A stretch of DNA of 64,000 nt from positions 2,362,501 through 2,426,500 of the forward strand of contig NZ_JQLQ01000002.1 in assembly GCF_000744285.1 (NCBI RefSeq), written 5' to 3'. The stretch's first letter is position 1, and each line of letters starts with the position of its first letter. This document shows positions 9,328 through 59,013 of this stretch, piece by piece. The notes under the pieces are model-generated. The model saw only the letters and a list, made by a program, of their open reading frames with translations. It had not been told where the DNA came from and did not search any database. The translations under genes and the position numbers were made by a program. Source of the DNA: Carnobacterium pleistocenium FTR1. Lineage in GTDB: Bacteria > Bacillota > Bacilli > Lactobacillales > Carnobacteriaceae.

Positions 9328-10089
9328 CTATAAACCTCTTTCTTCTTTGAAAAACCATTTTTGCTTTTTCTCATCAAAACAAAGATTACCCAATAAGTCT
9401 TTTTCCGGAAAATCTCGATTGACAAATTTCAAACGATCTTCTGCTAAATAAATGGGAATCTCATAAACTTCTTGATCCATTTTCAATTTTTTAAAGGAAA
9501 AGACAACGCCTTCTTTAAGCAGTGGGAGCAATTTTTTTACTTCAGACATTGGTAGACGCATAATTTTTTTATTTTTTTTGAAAAGAAATACGTTTCTTTT
9601 ATCATTTATTTTTTTCTCTAGATTATTTGTTATACTAACCGATAAAAGACTGTAAAATTGATCTAATTTTCGGTAATAAACCTTGGTTATTCCTTCAGGC
9701 AACGTTAAGTGGATATAATTATTTTGTAATTTATAATAGAATGGTGAATGTAAATGTGTATAGGTATGTGCAATATACAGTAGTTCAGAAATTTCAACCG
9801 GCGTCAACTGTCTCATCAACTCAACACTTTCAAAATCGATCCATTTAGAAGGAACTACATTTGTATTTTGGCTTTGCTCGAAGTATTCTTGTATTTTTGC
9901 TATTCCTCGAATCATACGAAAACCAGTATGGGAGTCATATTCCCCAACACCTTTGGGAGCACTTAACAATAATATATTTTTGATTGGTTTATTAACGGCA
10001 TCTTTATATTCACTCATTGTAAAACCTTTACTCATCAACACGGCATTTGTAATAGTATCTAAATGGACATAAGTTGTTTCTGATGGCAC
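9328..10089 (-). CDS. hypothetical protein, 253 residues, not recognised
   Basis: I do not recognise this protein. It has no signal peptide or membrane segment, and no nucleotide-binding or metal motif that I can see. It opens PSETTYVHLDTITNAVLMSKG. The middle contains a basic stretch (KKINDKRNVFLFKKNKK) and the C-terminal third is rich in Lys, Phe and Glu. The start is a GTG about eight bases after GGGGAG. It stands alone, transcribed on the minus strand after a gap full of inverted repeats. A TATAAT box lies about 20-25 bases upstream of the GTG. Codon use looks like its neighbours, so foreign origin is not indicated. Confidence 0.7.
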   Translation of the reverse strand: MPSETTYVHLDTITNAVLMSKGFTMSEYKDAVNKPIKNILLLSAPKGVGEYDSHTGFRMIRGIAKIQEYFEQSQNTNVVPSKWIDFESVELMRQLTPVEISELLYIAHTYTHLHSPFYYKLQNNYIHLTLPEGITKVYYRKLDQFYSLLSVSITNNLEKKINDKRNVFLFKKNKKIMRLPMSEVKKLLPLLKEGVVFSFKKLKMDQEVYEIPIYLAEDRLKFVNRDFPEKDLLGNLCFDEKKQKWFFKEERGL

Positions 10090-27722: not shown

Positions 27723-27763
27723 TTTGAAGATCTCCTTTGAAGAGCTCCACACATAATAATTAT

Positions 27764-27865
27764 GCAGCGAATGCAGAAACAAAACCGCAAATTGTACAAA
27801 CAATTTTTCGTCCGCGGGCAACATCCCATCCCAGCGACACTTAACGCTTTATTTCCTACTCTGAT
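27764..27865 (-). promoter_or_regulatory. tetrahydrofolate (THF) riboswitch upstream of folT
   Basis: Read on the minus strand, the conserved pieces appear in order: AGAGTAGG, GCGTTAAGTG, GGGATGGGATGT, GGACGAAA, GCGGT and CTGCATTCGCTGC. P1 is CAG/CTG and P2 is GAAATAA/TTGTTTC, with the AGTAG and TGCATTCG internal-loop strands between, exactly as in the class I THF aptamer. The folT ribosome site lies about 30 bases downstream, so translational control is likely. The call is by eye; a covariance search would confirm it. Confidence 0.88.
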
Positions 27866-35778: not shown

Positions 35779-35958
35779 ATCCGGTTTCAACTCCTTTCAA
35801 AAAGCTGTTTAGCTAATAGTAACATGTACTTGATAAAAAGATAAGTTTATATAACCGGTTTCATTAGTAATAGAAAATCCCTTTTACTTGAAGTGCTTTT
35901 TTGTCTGCGTTAAAATAAGCATTGTTAAACTTAAACTATTAGGAAAGAGGGATTGTAC

Positions 35959-36477
35959 ATGGGAAAGAAAATTGCAACAGTCGTTACCAATTTATTTGAA
36001 GATGTCGAATTCACATCGCCAAAGGAAGCTTTAATAAATGCAGGACACCAAGTGATTACAATTGAGAAAAAAGCAGGCAATACAGTTACAGGAAAAAAAG
36101 GGGAAGCTACCATTACCATTGATAAAGGGATTGATGACGTTTCACCAGAAGATTTTGATGCATTATTGATTCCAGGAGGTTTTTCACCTGATCAATTAAG
36201 ATCTGATGATCGATTTTTAGCTTTTACTAAAGCTTTTTCTGATGCAAAAAAACCTATTTTTTCAATTTGCCACGGACCTCAACTTCTTATTAACGCTGAA
36301 GTAGTCAAAGGCAAAAAAATGACTGCTGTCAAACAAGTTGGCGTTGATCTAAAAAATGCAGGTGCTTTATTCGAAGATAGCGAAGTTGTAGAAGACGAGA
36401 GCGGCATCATTTCTAGTCGTACACCTGAAGACCTTCCCGCTTTCAACAAAGCAATCATAAAGGCTTTAGCTGGTTGA
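35959..36477 (+). CDS. DJ-1/PfpI family protein (YfkM-like general stress protein)
   Basis: The 172-residue protein is a type 1 glutamine-amidotransferase-like PfpI member with the nucleophile-elbow Cys104 in FSICHGPQLL and the acidic partner in DVEFTSPKEAL. Bacterial relatives are called general stress proteins or proposed deglycases acting on methylglyoxal adducts. Its place next to mgsA (divergent) makes a role in methylglyoxal damage attractive but unproven. The ATG follows GAGGGA by six bases. Confidence 0.88.
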   Translation: MGKKIATVVTNLFEDVEFTSPKEALINAGHQVITIEKKAGNTVTGKKGEATITIDKGIDDVSPEDFDALLIPGGFSPDQLRSDDRFLAFTKAFSDAKKPIFSICHGPQLLINAEVVKGKKMTAVKQVGVDLKNAGALFEDSEVVEDESGIISSRTPEDLPAFNKAIIKALAG

Positions 36478-36553
36478 TCCTAAACAAGATTTTTTTAATT
36501 GAATTCAATTAAAATTTTCACTTTCCTATCATAGTCTATTAAATATCCTATGA

Positions 36554-36663
36554 TAAAATAAAGAAGTTGTTAAATAGTACTGAATTTATTTTCACTCTCT
36601 TTTCTCCCCCTATTGAAAAGAGTCTTACCCCCTTAGCTATCTCTTAATTGAGATAGCTTTTTT
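36554..36663 (+). ncRNA. candidate small RNA 1 with C-rich loop and terminator
   Basis: There is no reading frame of note. A TGATAAAAT extended -10 box (36551-36559) precedes about 95 bases that end in a clean terminator (AGCTATCTC/GAGATAGCT plus T-run, 36635-36663). Inside is a perfect 8-bp hairpin, CTCTTTTC/GAAAAGAG, whose loop is TCCCCCTATT. A single-stranded TCTTACCCCCTT follows it. The -35 box is weak. C-rich exposed loops are typical of small RNAs that pair with Shine-Dalgarno sites (streptococcal csRNAs, listerial LhrC, RsaE/RoxS). Confidence 0.55.
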
Positions 36664-36744
36664 ATCTTTTATCATTACCTTAAGGGATATATATAAATTT
36701 CATCTCATTTTCTTCATAACATATCGTTATAGTTTACTTATACC

Positions 36745-36837
36745 AATAACAACCAACTTTTTTATATTGCCTTTTCTCCTCCAAAGTAAATGGCAATGAC
36801 TCCTCTACCACCCTTTTTATATGGGTGGTTTTTTTAC
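36745..36837 (+). ncRNA. candidate small RNA 2 with C/U-rich loop and terminator
   Basis: After a possible TATACC -10 box at 36739 comes about 85 bases ending in a terminator (ACCACCC/GGGTGGT plus seven T, 36807-36835). A 6-bp ATTGCC/GGCAAT stem (36766-36797) displays the loop TTTTCTCCTCCAAAG. A second C/U patch, ACTCCTCTACC, lies between this stem and the terminator. The loop motif CTTTTCTCCTCC differs from candidate 1 (CTTTTCTCCCCC) by one base. No ribosome site or coding frame is present. Confidence 0.55.
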
Positions 36838-36897
36838 CTAAAATAATATTGCTCTACTAATATTTTAATATTACTTACTTTTTTTCAAGCTCCTAAC

Positions 36898-36970
36898 TTG
36901 ACAAAAGCAAAAAAACATTGGTATACTTACAGAAACAAACAAGTGGTTACTTGCCTAACTTGCTTGTTTC
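36898..36970 (+). promoter_or_regulatory. promoter and leader hairpin of the P-type ATPase gene
   Basis: A TTGACA box (36898-36903), an 18-base spacer and TATACT (36922-36927) are followed at once by an inverted repeat, GAAACAAACAAG/CTTGCTTGTTTC (36932-36970, one mismatch). The repeat would form a 5' leader hairpin or act as an operator. Confidence 0.7.
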
Positions 36971-37007
36971 ATCCATTATGTTAAAAATACTTATTAGGAG
37001 GAATGTT

Positions 37008-39650
37008 ATGGATTTTAGAACAAAAAAATTAGATTCCATTATATCACAGTTCAACAGTACCGCAGAAACAGGGTTATCCCCGAAGGAAGTAGGAGAACAC
37101 AAAAAACAATTTGGTGCCAACCAATTTGATGAAGAGGAAAGTGTTTCTTTATTTTCAAAGATTCTTGATCAATTAAAAGATGTCACCGTTATTATCTTGA
37201 TCCTTGCCGGAATTATCTCCACGTATATTGCCATTACTGAACACCCCGACGATTTCTCAGAACCTATTGTAATCTTCTCTATTATTGTCATCAATGTTGT
37301 TATTGCTCTTAGGCAGGAAGGAAAAGCTGAAAAAGCTTTGGATTCATTGCAAAGTCTATCTGCTCCACAAGCACGCGTTATAAGAGATGGTCAAGAAGAC
37401 GTTATTGACGCTGCCGAGTTAGTACCAGGAGACATTATACTATTAGAAGCAGGTGATCAAATACCTGCAGATGCTCGTTTAATTTCTAGTAGTGATTTAC
37501 AAGTCGAAGAGTCTGCATTAACTGGTGAAAGTATGCCTGTCGAAAAAGACGAAAATGCAGAAATTGAAGAAGACAGCCCTGTTGGTGATGTATTTAATAC
37601 TGTTTTTTCTGGAACCTTGGTTACCAATGGACGAGCAAAAGCTATTGTTGTAACAACTGGTATGGACACAGAAATGGGTTCTGTTGCAAACTTATTGAAC
37701 AGTACCAAACAAGGAAAAACACCTTTACAATCTAGAATGGATAGTTTAGGAAAACAAGTAAGTGTCATCGCTTTAATTGCTGGGGTTATTATTTTCATTT
37801 TAAGCTTCCTTCAAGGAGAAGCATTTATCCTTAGCTTAATGACTGCTGTATCACTTGCTGTTGCAGCCGTTCCTGAAACCTTACCTGTTATCGTCACTAT
37901 TTCATTAGCTAATGGTGTGAAAAATATGGTAGATCGCAATGCGATTATCCGAACCATCCCTTCCGTTGAAACACTGGGTAGTGCTTCTGTTATTGCTTCA
38001 GATAAAACAGGAACGTTAACTCAAAATCAAATGACCATTCAAAAACTTTGGGCTTTTCCTCATGAACCAATAAATGTAAAAAATGAGTTTGGTGATGATG
38101 AAAAATGGGTTCTTAAGATGATGAGCCTAGCCTCAAATGCGACTATTGAAGATCGTGATGGCGAGGAAGTTATTAGTGGAGATCCTACTGAAACAGCGAT
38201 TATCCGCTTGTTACAGAAAAAAGGACTTCAAAAAGATGATTTAGATAAGTCTTACCCACGTGTACACGAGATACCTTTTGATTCTAGTCGTAAGTTGATG
38301 ACGACTGTTCATGAGATAGATGGTCATTACATTTCCATTACTAAGGGAGCTTTTGATCGTTTACCAGTTGAATTTTCGTCTATTACAGATGAAGCAGGTC
38401 AAAATGCACGAGATATCCATGACTCATTTGCTAATGATGCTTTACGCGTTATCGCTGTTGGATATAAAACATACGATACACTTCCAGAAGATTTAAGTCC
38501 CGAAGAACTTGAAGATGGGATTACATTTGCTGGGATTGTCGGAATGATTGATCCTCCAAGAGAAGAAAGTATTCAAGCAGTTAAAGAAGCCAAGTCAGCA
38601 GGCATTAAAACCATTATGATTACTGGTGACCATGCTGCTACAGCTTCTGCTATCGCTAAACAAATCGGTATTTTTGAAGAAGGCGATAAAGCAATCACAG
38701 GTGCTGAATTAGGTAAACTTTCAGACGAAAAACTAAAAGAAACAATTCGTGATTATTCCGTTTATGCACGTGTTTCTCCTGAAGACAAGATTCGAATCGT
38801 TAAAGCTTGGCAATCACATGGAGAAGTTGTAGCCATGACCGGAGACGGTGTCAATGATGCACCAGCCTTAAAAGCGGCTGATGTTGGTACTGCTATGGGA
38901 ATTACCGGTACTGAGGTTGCTAAAAGTGCTTCTGACATGATCTTGACCGATGACAAATTTGATACCATTGTTCATGCTGTTGAAGAAGGACGACGTGTTT
39001 ACGAAAACATCAAAAAAACTGTATACTTTTTATTATCATGTAACATTTCAGAAATTCTCATTATGTTAATTGCTGTTATTATGGGCTGGGGATTACCAGT
39101 CATTGCTATCCAACTACTATTTGTTAATGTAGTAGCGGATGGAATTCCTGGTTTTGCATTGAGCAAAGAAAAAGCTGATCCGACTATTATGGATAATGAA
39201 CCAACAGCTAAAGGTGAAAGTATCTTCGCTAAAGGCGGCTATCGGAATATTGCAATTGCAGCTTTAACGTTCACAATTACGACTCTTATTGGTTTCTACG
39301 TGGGTTCATTTATTGATATCGATTCTACAATCTCCGCAAGTCATGACGTTGGTCAAACAATGGCTTTCTTAATTCTTGGTTGGTCTTCTGTACTGCACAT
39401 TTTCAATGCACGCAGTAAAGAATCTATTTTCAAAGTTGGGATTACATCCAACATGAACTTGTTCTGGTTAGCAATGCTCTCAATTGCATTGATTACCCTC
39501 GTGGCTACTGTGCCATTCTTAGCTGGTATTTTTAACTTAGTTGCTATTAGTATAACGCATTGGATAATTGCTATTGGACTATCTCTTACTATTCTTATAG
39601 TAGTTGAACTTCAAAAATTCATTATGCGTAAAATGAATAAAATATTTTAA
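37008..39650 (+). CDS. P-type cation ATPase, calcium-transporting (SERCA/YloB-like)
   Basis: The 880-residue pump has an N-terminal cation-ATPase domain, ten membrane segments, the TGES actuator motif, the phosphorylation site SDKTGTLTQNQ and the hinge MTGDGVNDAPALKAADVG. It has the PEGL-equivalent VPETLPVIVTIS in membrane segment 4. The ion-site pattern and C-terminal six-segment domain fit bacterial Ca2+ ATPases such as YloB, although Na+/K+-like specificity cannot be excluded. The ATG follows AGGAGGA; a frame extension 30 codons upstream lies in the leader hairpin and is rejected. Confidence 0.9.
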   Translation: MDFRTKKLDSIISQFNSTAETGLSPKEVGEHKKQFGANQFDEEESVSLFSKILDQLKDVTVIILILAGIISTYIAITEHPDDFSEPIVIFSIIVINVVIALRQEGKAEKALDSLQSLSAPQARVIRDGQEDVIDAAELVPGDIILLEAGDQIPADARLISSSDLQVEESALTGESMPVEKDENAEIEEDSPVGDVFNTVFSGTLVTNGRAKAIVVTTGMDTEMGSVANLLNSTKQGKTPLQSRMDSLGKQVSVIALIAGVIIFILSFLQGEAFILSLMTAVSLAVAAVPETLPVIVTISLANGVKNMVDRNAIIRTIPSVETLGSASVIASDKTGTLTQNQMTIQKLWAFPHEPINVKNEFGDDEKWVLKMMSLASNATIEDRDGEEVISGDPTETAIIRLLQKKGLQKDDLDKSYPRVHEIPFDSSRKLMTTVHEIDGHYISITKGAFDRLPVEFSSITDEAGQNARDIHDSFANDALRVIAVGYKTYDTLPEDLSPEELEDGITFAGIVGMIDPPREESIQAVKEAKSAGIKTIMITGDHAATASAIAKQIGIFEEGDKAITGAELGKLSDEKLKETIRDYSVYARVSPEDKIRIVKAWQSHGEVVAMTGDGVNDAPALKAADVGTAMGITGTEVAKSASDMILTDDKFDTIVHAVEEGRRVYENIKKTVYFLLSCNISEILIMLIAVIMGWGLPVIAIQLLFVNVVADGIPGFALSKEKADPTIMDNEPTAKGESIFAKGGYRNIAIAALTFTITTLIGFYVGSFIDIDSTISASHDVGQTMAFLILGWSSVLHIFNARSKESIFKVGITSNMNLFWLAMLSIALITLVATVPFLAGIFNLVAISITHWIIAIGLSLTILIVVELQKFIMRKMNKIF

Positions 39651-47704: not shown

Positions 47705-47926
47705 TTCTTTTCCCCCTTATAAGACTTATTTTCTTCTTCATTATACCTTATTTTATCCATACTCCACATTAATTTTCATAATTTCATACTTTCTGTCTTG
47801 AATTGATCTTAAAAAGAATCATTTTAAAATTCATCCATAAAGGTGGACTATAAAAACGTACTTCTGTTATAGTTGGGTTTGCTTTAGCTAATGCTAGCTA
47901 AGTTTATTTGTAAGGAGGAGAAAAAT

Positions 47927-58915: not shown

Positions 58916-59013
58916 TATGTACGAACGGCACATGACGGAACATTCTTAGTGCTGCTTCCTTCCGGATCTGACACGATTCGAAAGTCTATCATTGCCGTAC
59001 GACCTTTCGGCAC
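58916..59013 (-). ncRNA. ffs: small signal recognition particle RNA (4.5S type)
   Basis: On the minus strand a GTGCCGAAAGG start leads to the universally conserved SRP domain IV loop, GTCAGATCCGGAAGGAAGCA, and then GCACTAAG. The lower stem is ACGGCA with TGCCGT. Size (about 100 bases) is that of the short SRP RNA found in lactic acid bacteria. A TATAAT box lies at plus 59019-59024, six bases before the start. The RNA binds Ffh to target proteins to the membrane. The 3' end is approximate. Confidence 0.95.

Follow-up and report, generated by a model that had tools for sequence, protein, structure and literature searches.

The locus and its two candidate RNA genes

The 64,000-nucleotide stretch of the genome of Carnobacterium pleistocenium FTR1 analysed here (the window, G000:C2:2362501-2426500, part of a 2.66 Mb genome) includes an intergenic gap, 36478-37007, flanked by an open reading frame (ORF) of the PfpI/DJ-1 type and an ORF of a calcium-type P-ATPase. 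Two candidate genes of small RNAs (sRNAs), referred to below as C1 and C2, are located inside this gap, and the PfpI gene, C1, C2, and the ATPase gene all follow one direction (+). The gap had been described in an initial annotation as a gene-free stretch of 530 bases, which is correct except for two ORFs of at least 50 amino acids, namely a TTG-started upstream extension of the ATPase ORF and a 57-residue ORF on the minus strand from 36947. The features of the locus are as follows.

35953-36477, plus strand: PfpI/DJ-1 gene, the upstream neighbour conserved beside C1 (TIGR01382, 184.5 bits; PF01965)
36518-36532, plus strand: operator-like direct repeat of C1, TCAC-N7-TCAT, with the second half-site ending 21 bp before the -10 element
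36554-36559, plus strand: predicted -10 element of C1, TAAAAT (from the sequence, with TAnnnT at the matching place in relatives)
36567-36664, plus strand: C1, predicted sRNA transcript (match of covariance model R1, which includes this sequence; fold z-score -4.57)
36597-36622, plus strand: C1 hairpin, CUCUUUUC-(UCCCCCUAUU)-GAAAAGAG, from folding
36627-36632, plus strand: second C-rich single-stranded patch of C1, ACCCCC, from folding
36635-36664, plus strand: predicted intrinsic terminator of C1 (terminator scan and folding)
36703-36717, plus strand: operator-like repeat of C2, TCTC-N7-TCAT, degenerate in its first half, with the second half ending 10 bp before the -10 element
36728-36733, plus strand: predicted -10 element of C2, TATAGT (from the sequence and from relatives)
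36741-36835, plus strand: C2, predicted sRNA homologous to Ref84 (Rfam RF02846, 47.2 bits; model R2, which contains this sequence, 89 bits)
36765-36798, plus strand: C2 hairpin with the loop CCUCCAA at 36778-36784 (folding; covariation over 22 distinct hairpins)
36799-36806, plus strand: C-rich linker of C2, GACUCCUC
36807-36836, plus strand: predicted intrinsic terminator of C2 (folding; covariation in 21 aligned copies)
37008-39650, plus strand: calcium-type P-ATPase, the downstream neighbour

The start of C1 was placed according to the position of its -10 element and the ends of the model matches. The ATPase gene has a strong promoter-like site of its own (36898-36927, TTGACA-18-TATACT), located past the C2 terminator.

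Families of the genomes used for comparison are coded, with f1 denoting the family of C. pleistocenium itself, and other families and genera are likewise given as codes. On the basis of the Rfam families that they carry, we take f2 to be Enterococcaceae and genera g12 and g35 of f7 to be Listeria-type. Used as a query, the intergenic DNA was matched in 28 of 59 genomes including its own, in some by short matches only, and all 18 own-family genomes, again including its own, have at least one match in the C2 part, some of them short. Loss of loops and terminators in close relatives had been named at the outset as an observation that would speak against the two genes; of the five further genomes in the genus, four retain both units at the locus, while the fifth, G001, has no C1 match and a single C2-like copy only.

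Predicted structures of C1 and C2

Upon folding, the C1 unit (36564-36668) reaches -23.0 kcal/mol (z -4.57) and the C2 unit (36741-36837) -19.6 kcal/mol (z -3.57), with none of 200 shuffled sequences equally stable in either case. The fold of C1 comprises a hairpin, a C-rich linker, and a terminator. Its stem, CUCUUUUC/GAAAAGAG, includes the paired segment CUUUUC (36599-36604), and the loop consists of UCCCCCUAUU (36605-36614) only. It had been proposed initially that both hairpins expose nearly the same 12 bases. The two 12-mers are indeed found, CTTTTCTCCCCC at 36599-36610 and CTTTTCTCCTCC at 36771-36782, but they are only partly loop, since half of that of C1 belongs to the stem and the loop of C2 is CCUCCAA. 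The second unpaired C-rich patch expected in each unit appears in both folds, as ACCCCC in C1 and as GACUCCUC in C2. Each unit also folds with a terminator, although a simple scan for intrinsic terminators returned only the first of the two expected ones (one, compared to a shuffle mean of 1.3).

The hairpin of C1 is kept in 13 aligned genomes, with a loop shorter by two bases in G017 and G012, and all 13 retain at least CCC in the second patch. In L013, L015, and L016 the terminator of C1 is replaced by a hairpin with a different sequence (folded for L013 and L015). The stem of C1 is almost invariant, with six distinct forms and with two-sided changes in one of 17 pairs in one alignment and in two of eight pairs in another. 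In turn, the stem of C2 covaries, with 85% of the cells paired over nine positions, compared to a mean of 70% and a maximum of 79% when the 3' arms were dealt anew 1000 times. The 22 distinct hairpins used in this test were chosen by CCTCCA(A) followed by AG, a choice that makes loop and innermost pair constant from the start and leaves out copies with other loops (L008, L032, and those of the UUAU type); the constancy of the loop is thus based on an alignment of 21 copies, where CUCCUC is present in 21 and CUCCUCC in 20. The linker of C2 is ACUCCUUUU in 11 of the 21 aligned copies and has no CUCC in three, and seven of the eight terminator pairs change on both sides somewhere in the 21 copies. 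Except for these three linkers, conserved unpaired C-rich segments complementary to Shine-Dalgarno (SD) sequences are present throughout. The initial proposal of an anti-SD design resembling that of LhrC appears to be borne out, with two independent genes predicted and such segments in both.

A small ORF in C1, a TTG-started frame of 26 codons, was considered and rejected, as the frame stops after three codons in the sister genome G003 and the loops of G017 and G012 are two bases shorter.

C2 and the Ref84 family

C2 matches the Rfam family Ref84 (RF02846) over model positions 1-87 of 87, with 47.2 bits (E 5e-5 for 491 bases), and the 5' stretch, hairpin, linker, and terminator follow in the order of the family. 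The elements in common are a 5' UACCAA-AACAACC, a U-rich tract, the hairpin, an ACUCC linker, and the terminator. The gathering cutoff of 52 bits is reached neither by C2 nor by C1 (20.3 bits), and because its score is below this cutoff, C2 is regarded here as a Ref84 homologue rather than an Rfam-grade member. Its orthologue at the same locus of the sister-species genome G004 clears the cutoff with 62.9 bits. The initial annotation had not recognised the two units as a described family. C2 is a homologue of one, whereas C1 is a unit to which no Rfam family could be assigned (the best same-strand scores are 20.3 bits for Ref84, E 4.2, and 18.9 bits for rli22, E 1.4) and which is without the 5' consensus of Ref84.

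Over 295 genomes of the order, the Ref84 model matched 74 at E of at most 0.001, 40 of them above the cutoff, and none of 14 control genomes. The covariance model R2, with 21 rows, was built for C2, of which 34 copies were extracted (the L015 locus ends early); tested on seven Ref84 loci of Rfam grade from families f2 and f8, it finds every one, with 50-72 bits. C. pleistocenium itself has two Ref84 copies, one at 36741-36836 of the window and another at G000:C2:808193-808281 on the minus strand. Two differences set C2 apart from Ref84. Many of the best-scoring Rfam copies lack the CCUCC loop (it is UUAU in L040, L041, and others), and the promoter box TCAY-N7-TCAY described below is found in none of the 30 loci L038-L067, several of which, when inspected, have TTGACA-like -35 elements. 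According to PMC7724050, the enterococcal relatives sRNA_109 of E. faecalis and sRNA_093 of E. faecium are highly conserved, resemble the Ref84 family, have no known function, and are expressed as discrete sRNA. Among the papers listed by literature searches, which did not extend to subscription journals, there was no report of C1 or C2 or of a link between Ref84 and LhrC.

Several copies deserve separate mention. The second copy of the own genome (L002, G000:C2:808193-808286 on the minus strand) scores 65.4 bits with R2 and has a clean CCUCC loop and a TCAC-N7-TCAT box. In genus g18 of family f8 (L023, L025, L026), Ref84-like genes that hardly differ from each other form tandem arrays, with a spacing of mostly 195-250 bases. 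The small genome G020 of family f4 (L178) has six R2 matches, from 49.2 to 23.5 bits, two of which are about 210 bases apart; the copy inspected there has the loop CUCCUCCCAAAC. In G012, a group II intron (RF02001, 146.9 bits) is located directly behind C2 (L013, 1725-1997).

Distribution of C1 and its probable kinship with C2

The covariance model R1 was built from seven of 13 C1 sequences, with no C2 included. It finds C1 in 13 of the 18 own-family genomes (61.6-118.8 bits) and in G063 of family f6 (53.7 bits), but not in the other five own-family genomes, among them the same-genus G001. Four more matches, with 45-50 bits, belong to genus g33 and are Ref84-like copies by sequence; up to E 1 there are matches in 74 of 295 genomes, most of the remainder looking like chance, with few inspected. 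The exact hairpin is carried by C. jeotgali, Desemzia incerta, Desemzia sp. RIT 804, and Pisciglobus halotolerans. C1-like sequences are also present at the matching place in G049 and G042 (L022, L030), as well as beside PfpI in G167 (L089, 32.9 bits). With 1.5 kb upstream covered, 14 of 17 loci have a PfpI motif ahead of C1, while none was found in G006, G011, and G015. C2 follows C1 within 0.15-0.6 kb in 13 of the 17 loci, and the two Desemzia have it within 1.4-1.5 kb; in G015 there is no C2 close to C1, and that of G167 is on a separate contig.

The two units had been presented as merely similar, whereas the cross-scores of the two models point to probable paralogues. R1 scores the C2 of the window at 41.3 bits, with the next match in the window at 18, and R2 gives 30-48 bits to seven C1s, its noise reaching 19.8. 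With the Ref84 model of Rfam, the C1 of L010 scores 40.4 bits, as true C2s do (36-47), and the 5' part of the C1 of G006 runs parallel to Ref84 in a side-by-side alignment. Paralogy is probable rather than proven because common U-richness and the terminator feed the cross-scores. C1 is thus probably a divergent paralogue of C2, found mostly between the PfpI/DJ-1 gene and C2, and, as far as Rfam and literature searches reach, an undescribed relative of Ref84.

Promoters and their direct repeats

The predicted promoters of both units share a half-site, TCAY, in register with the -10 element. In C1 promoters, whose -10 positions were assigned by hand, it ends exactly 21 bp before the -10 element in 13 of 17 cases, which comprise every one of the 13 own-family promoters and none of the four of f6; the full repeat, with a half-site also at 32 bp, is found in four of 17. 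The best of all offsets in 300 shuffles has three. The C2 promoter set comprises 25 promoters of f1, f4, and f6 and ten of f8, after removal of the false loop anchors L001:751, L007:621, and L019:2661. Among the 25, TCAY-N7-TCAY ends exactly 10 bp before the -10 element in 18 (at most one in 300 shuffles) and 21 bp before it in two more; of the ten copies from f8, each carries the half-site at 10 bp but none the full repeat. In two lhrC5-like promoters of Listeria, TCAT-N7-TCAT is located at -57 to -43, about 32 bp before the -10 element. The distances of 10, 21, and 32 bp correspond to one face of the helix. Substitutions in lhrC5 at -57 to -59 and at -55, a stretch that the repeat overlaps in part, reduce its induction (PMC4132741); there may be a slight offset between the published +1 and the Rfam start from which positions are counted here.

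The C1 promoter contains an 8-bp inverted repeat (TATCATAG...CTATGATA) at 36527-36555, the spacer of which has the opposite orientation to that in G003 and G005. This micro-inversion leaves the TCAT half-site in register.

Candidate regulon and regulator

A symmetric box, TTCAYA-N5-TTCAYA-N9-TANNNT, has 22 matches in the 18 own-family genomes and three for the reversed pattern, an enrichment that is partly post hoc, the box having been chosen after a loose search and sight of the promoter of a permease-like gene. Ten of the 22 precede this one gene (G000-G006, G011, G013, G015); they are orthologues and not independent of each other. Three others precede C2 (G007, G014, G016). The permease-like protein is matched in 14 of 30 genomes, and the box is present in all ten best-matching genomes inspected, the four weak matches to larger proteins standing outside this inspection. 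By eye it is a membrane protein (L194-L203; G000:C2:836070-836822 in the own genome) followed by an ORF resembling an ATP-binding cassette ATPase; no sequence in Pfam, NCBIfam, or PDB matched it at the cutoffs used.

The own genome has nine sites, two exact and seven with one mismatch, compared to two in the control. Those that are sensible as promoters precede the permease-like gene, the second Ref84 copy, a DUF3899 gene, and htrA, the last three with one mismatch. The exact site L210 and the site L215 are in or beside genes of the opposite strand, and L211 is without a listed ORF. The htrA-like gene (L217, G000:C2, near 2552810) has an apparent frame break near its N terminus in the assembly.

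In the literature, htrA is named as LisR-regulated (PMC6305404) and LhrC expression is stated to require LisR (PMC4132741); the latter paper, of 2014, reports that no LisR consensus had been identified. From the resemblance of the boxes, we infer that a putative response regulator of the OmpR family and LisR type may drive C1 and C2.

Comparison with LhrC and other anti-SD RNAs

LhrC1-5 and Rli22 (RF00616, RF01457, clan CL00114) resemble C1 and C2 in their multi-copy tandem genes, CU-rich loop and linker, 5' AACAAC, and U-rich tract. Distinct lhrC promoters carry TYAY-N7-TYAY in 11 of 20 cases and the strict TCAY-N7-TCAY in five of 20, with the repeat of the lhrC5-like promoters about 22 bp farther upstream than in C2. 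LhrC differs from C1 and C2 in having a CU motif in the terminator loop as well (PMC4132741), whereas C1 and C2 have it in the loop and linker and in neither terminator loop. The gathering score of RF00616, 110 bits, is far from C2 (19.3) and from its best-scoring relative, L022 (31.3).

R2 was applied to 17 of 30 fetched LhrC loci, from six genomes carrying RF00616, and finds LhrC copies in these 17 with 22.8-38.6 bits over the full model and one partial match of 17.5, the best other match being 14.6. In global alignments, the 5' parts of six C2/Ref84 sequences and twelve LhrCs beat shuffled ones (0-4 of 300 as good). With a sequence-only hidden Markov model, four of 21 LhrCs are at or below about 1.2% of shuffles, with weak scores, when the terminator is included, but none of 18 is below 1% without it, which counts against a common ancestry of LhrC and C2. 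Whole-genome scans with R2 also count against it, as LhrC is detected in no more than two of the four Listeria-type genomes, with about 32 bits, while matches of unclear nature in the own genome score up to 29.5 bits and unchecked ones in f4 and f9 reach 33-35 bits. We regard homology as likely, and the sequence comparisons suggest, rather than settle, that LhrC of Listeria is a distant relative of C2/Ref84. In genome G050 (L180; family f7, genus g26), two tandem sRNA-like units score 36.4 and 27.3 bits with R2; the unit inspected has the C-rich loop UUCCUCCCCCAAU and is intermediate between C1 and LhrC.

The streptococcal csRNAs are known to block SD sequences. They are small, occur several per genome, and are under a response regulator (PMC4507080, PMC3091779), all of which resembles the arrangement considered here, whereas no CiaR-type repeat above chance is found at C1 and C2 in this comparison at the level of promoters. 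In seven genomes of genus g8, presumably Streptococcus, R2 found nothing above 23.6 bits. RsaE/RoxS, FsrA, and SprD, sRNAs with a UCCC motif, likewise block translation by a C-rich motif (PMC4132741). RsaE is absent among the eight Rfam matches for the region up to E 5, which is the extent of the comparison with these RNAs.

Proposed function and its alternatives

The predicted genes, their conservation, structure, and kinship with Ref84, and the half-site shared in register with the -10 element are supported by the comparisons described above. Taken together, they make it probable that C1 and C2 are tandem, independently transcribed, envelope-stress-induced anti-SD sRNAs of one paralogous family, with C2 a Carnobacterium-type Ref84 and C1 its paralogue. 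Each RNA would consist of a short single-stranded 5' stretch, a hairpin with a C-rich loop, a second C-rich patch, and a terminator, and the loops, containing UCCCCCU or CCUCCA, would resemble the anti-SD end of 16S rRNA. Under envelope stress, an OmpR-family regulator of the LisR type would switch on both genes via TTCAYA-N5-TTCAYA repeats, and the two RNAs may then use loop and linker to pair with SD sequences in several mRNAs and keep ribosomes from binding, as do LhrC and csRNAs.

Individual targets were sought by complementarity. The initial annotation had paired the loop of C2 with the mscL ribosome site (47914-47924) over 11 bases and the loop of C1 with that of the gene at 9328-10089 on the minus strand over nine; both matches exist, but neither is better than chance. 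Upstream of 742 possible starts of ORFs of at least 80 amino acids in the window, each loop has one match of at least nine nucleotides; with 40 shuffled versions of each, the means are 0.43 and 0.45 sites and the maxima 3 and 4. The matches are not taken as evidence since shuffled loops give comparable numbers. Genome-wide, GGAGGAGAA-N3-10-ATG occurs at 17 places, compared to six for the reversed control, and six of the 17, mscL included, carry the 11-nucleotide GGAGGAGAAAA, two of these six being identical ORFs of 46 residues. By eye, the 17 include MscL, transporters resembling those of the phosphotransferase system, an amino-acid permease, a glucosaminidase-like secreted protein, and short or spurious ORFs, with no coherent theme.

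A number of observations weigh against the reading of C1 and C2 as paralogous, stress-induced anti-SD sRNAs. As to kinship, of eight C1 or C1-like units in 15 loci, the Ref84 model lists just that of L010, R2 does not raise the C1-like units of L089, L022, and L030 above its noise, and part of the C1-C2 cross-scores comes from common U-richness and the terminator. In G001, no C1 and a single C2-like copy are matched. As to regulation, the four f6-type C1 promoters are without the half-site, and the box of C2 in the window itself, degenerate in its first half, is among the seven of 25 that miss the full repeat. The looser repeat is found in only 11 of 20 lhrC promoters, and changes in lhrC5 at -72, -74, and -75, outside the repeat, impair induction as well (PMC4132741). 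The loose form of the box, TCAYNNTTTCTTCAYA-N9-TANNNT with two mismatches, was uninformative (16 matches compared to 14 in the control), the htrA site has a mismatch, and several other listed sites are inside genes or unexamined (L213, L214). As to function, target complementarity within the window is at chance level and the stem of C1 hardly varies. A nearly invariant 5' arm is, however, what would be expected if that arm is used for target pairing once the stem has opened, as reported for LhrC4 (PMC4132741).

That same stem bears on a different function, in which the C-rich loops would bind a protein or titrate another RNA as a decoy instead of pairing with ribosome-binding sites. Conservation of the C1 stem along with the loop goes beyond the need of a loop-only seed, and the target matches at chance level are compatible with a decoy as well. 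However, in LhrC4 it is the 5' side of stem A that pairs with the target upon opening of the stem (PMC4132741), which reconciles a conserved arm with base pairing, and C-rich stretches complementary to SD sequences persist across families in the loop and linker of C1, the loop of C2, and most linkers of C2, so that a decoy function appears improbable. Less probable still is that the hairpins are parts of the adjacent genes, with C1 forming the terminator or 3' end of the PfpI gene and C2 a part of the leader of the ATPase gene. Both units are co-directional with these genes and C1 is downstream of PfpI in 14 of 17 loci, but its sequence is kept without a PfpI motif within 1.5 kb upstream in G006, G011, and G015, and C2-like copies are found elsewhere, for instance at G000:C2:808193-808286 and in the tandem arrays of g18. 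Furthermore, each unit has its own -10-like site in relatives, and the ATPase gene has its TTGACA-18-TATACT after the C2 terminator.

Anti-SD sRNAs under a different response regulator, either PhoP (phosphate) or one of the CiaR type, are a more serious alternative to LisR-type control, although still an unlikely one. The generally known consensus sequences of CiaR and PhoP served for comparison. The 6-5-6 direct repeat of the box is a general layout of the OmpR/PhoB family, C2 promoters use TTCACA besides TTCATA, and the PHO box consists of 11-nucleotide repeats (PMC4415409). On the other hand, the second pstS gene, next to a PhoR-like ORF, has upstream repeats of the TTTACA/TTAACA type, not TTCAYA, and a link to the envelope is suggested by HtrA and by the conserved permease-like gene. 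CiaR was rejected as the regulator, as its repeats are not enriched over shuffles: TTTAAG-N5-TTTAAG has only three-mismatch matches in 36478-37007 and 202 in the window, compared to 225 in shuffled sequence.

Beyond the preferred reading of the carnobacterial pair as LisR-type-controlled SD blockers, we can tentatively envisage, as a possibility rather than an expectation, that C1, C2/Ref84, LhrC, and the LhrC-like copies of g26 (L180) form one sRNA superfamily across the order Lactobacillales, the RNA arm of an envelope-stress regulon of the LisR/CroR type with TTCAYA-N5-TTCAYA-like operators 10, 21, or about 32 bp before the -10 element. The enterococcal Ref84 genes would then have been rewired to ordinary promoters, with partial loss of the SD-like loop. 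C2 itself is a homologue of a known but uncharacterised family, and this wider family link is the most interesting part. If the link to LhrC holds, separate sRNA families of Listeria, Enterococcus, and Carnobacterium-type bacteria would go back to a single ancestral RNA, and the orphan family Ref84 would obtain its function from LhrC. The carnobacterial tandem pair, with a readable loop, linker, and operator, would give Ref84 a testable function as an SD blocker under envelope stress, with a harmless bacterium as the test organism, and the aligned promoters offer a concrete candidate operator for regulators of the LisR type.

Other features of the window

In addition to the two sRNA candidates, the window contains a tetrahydrofolate (THF) riboswitch (27763-27865), a PreQ1 riboswitch (1691-1736), and a small signal recognition particle (SRP) RNA (58917-59003), all three on the minus strand.

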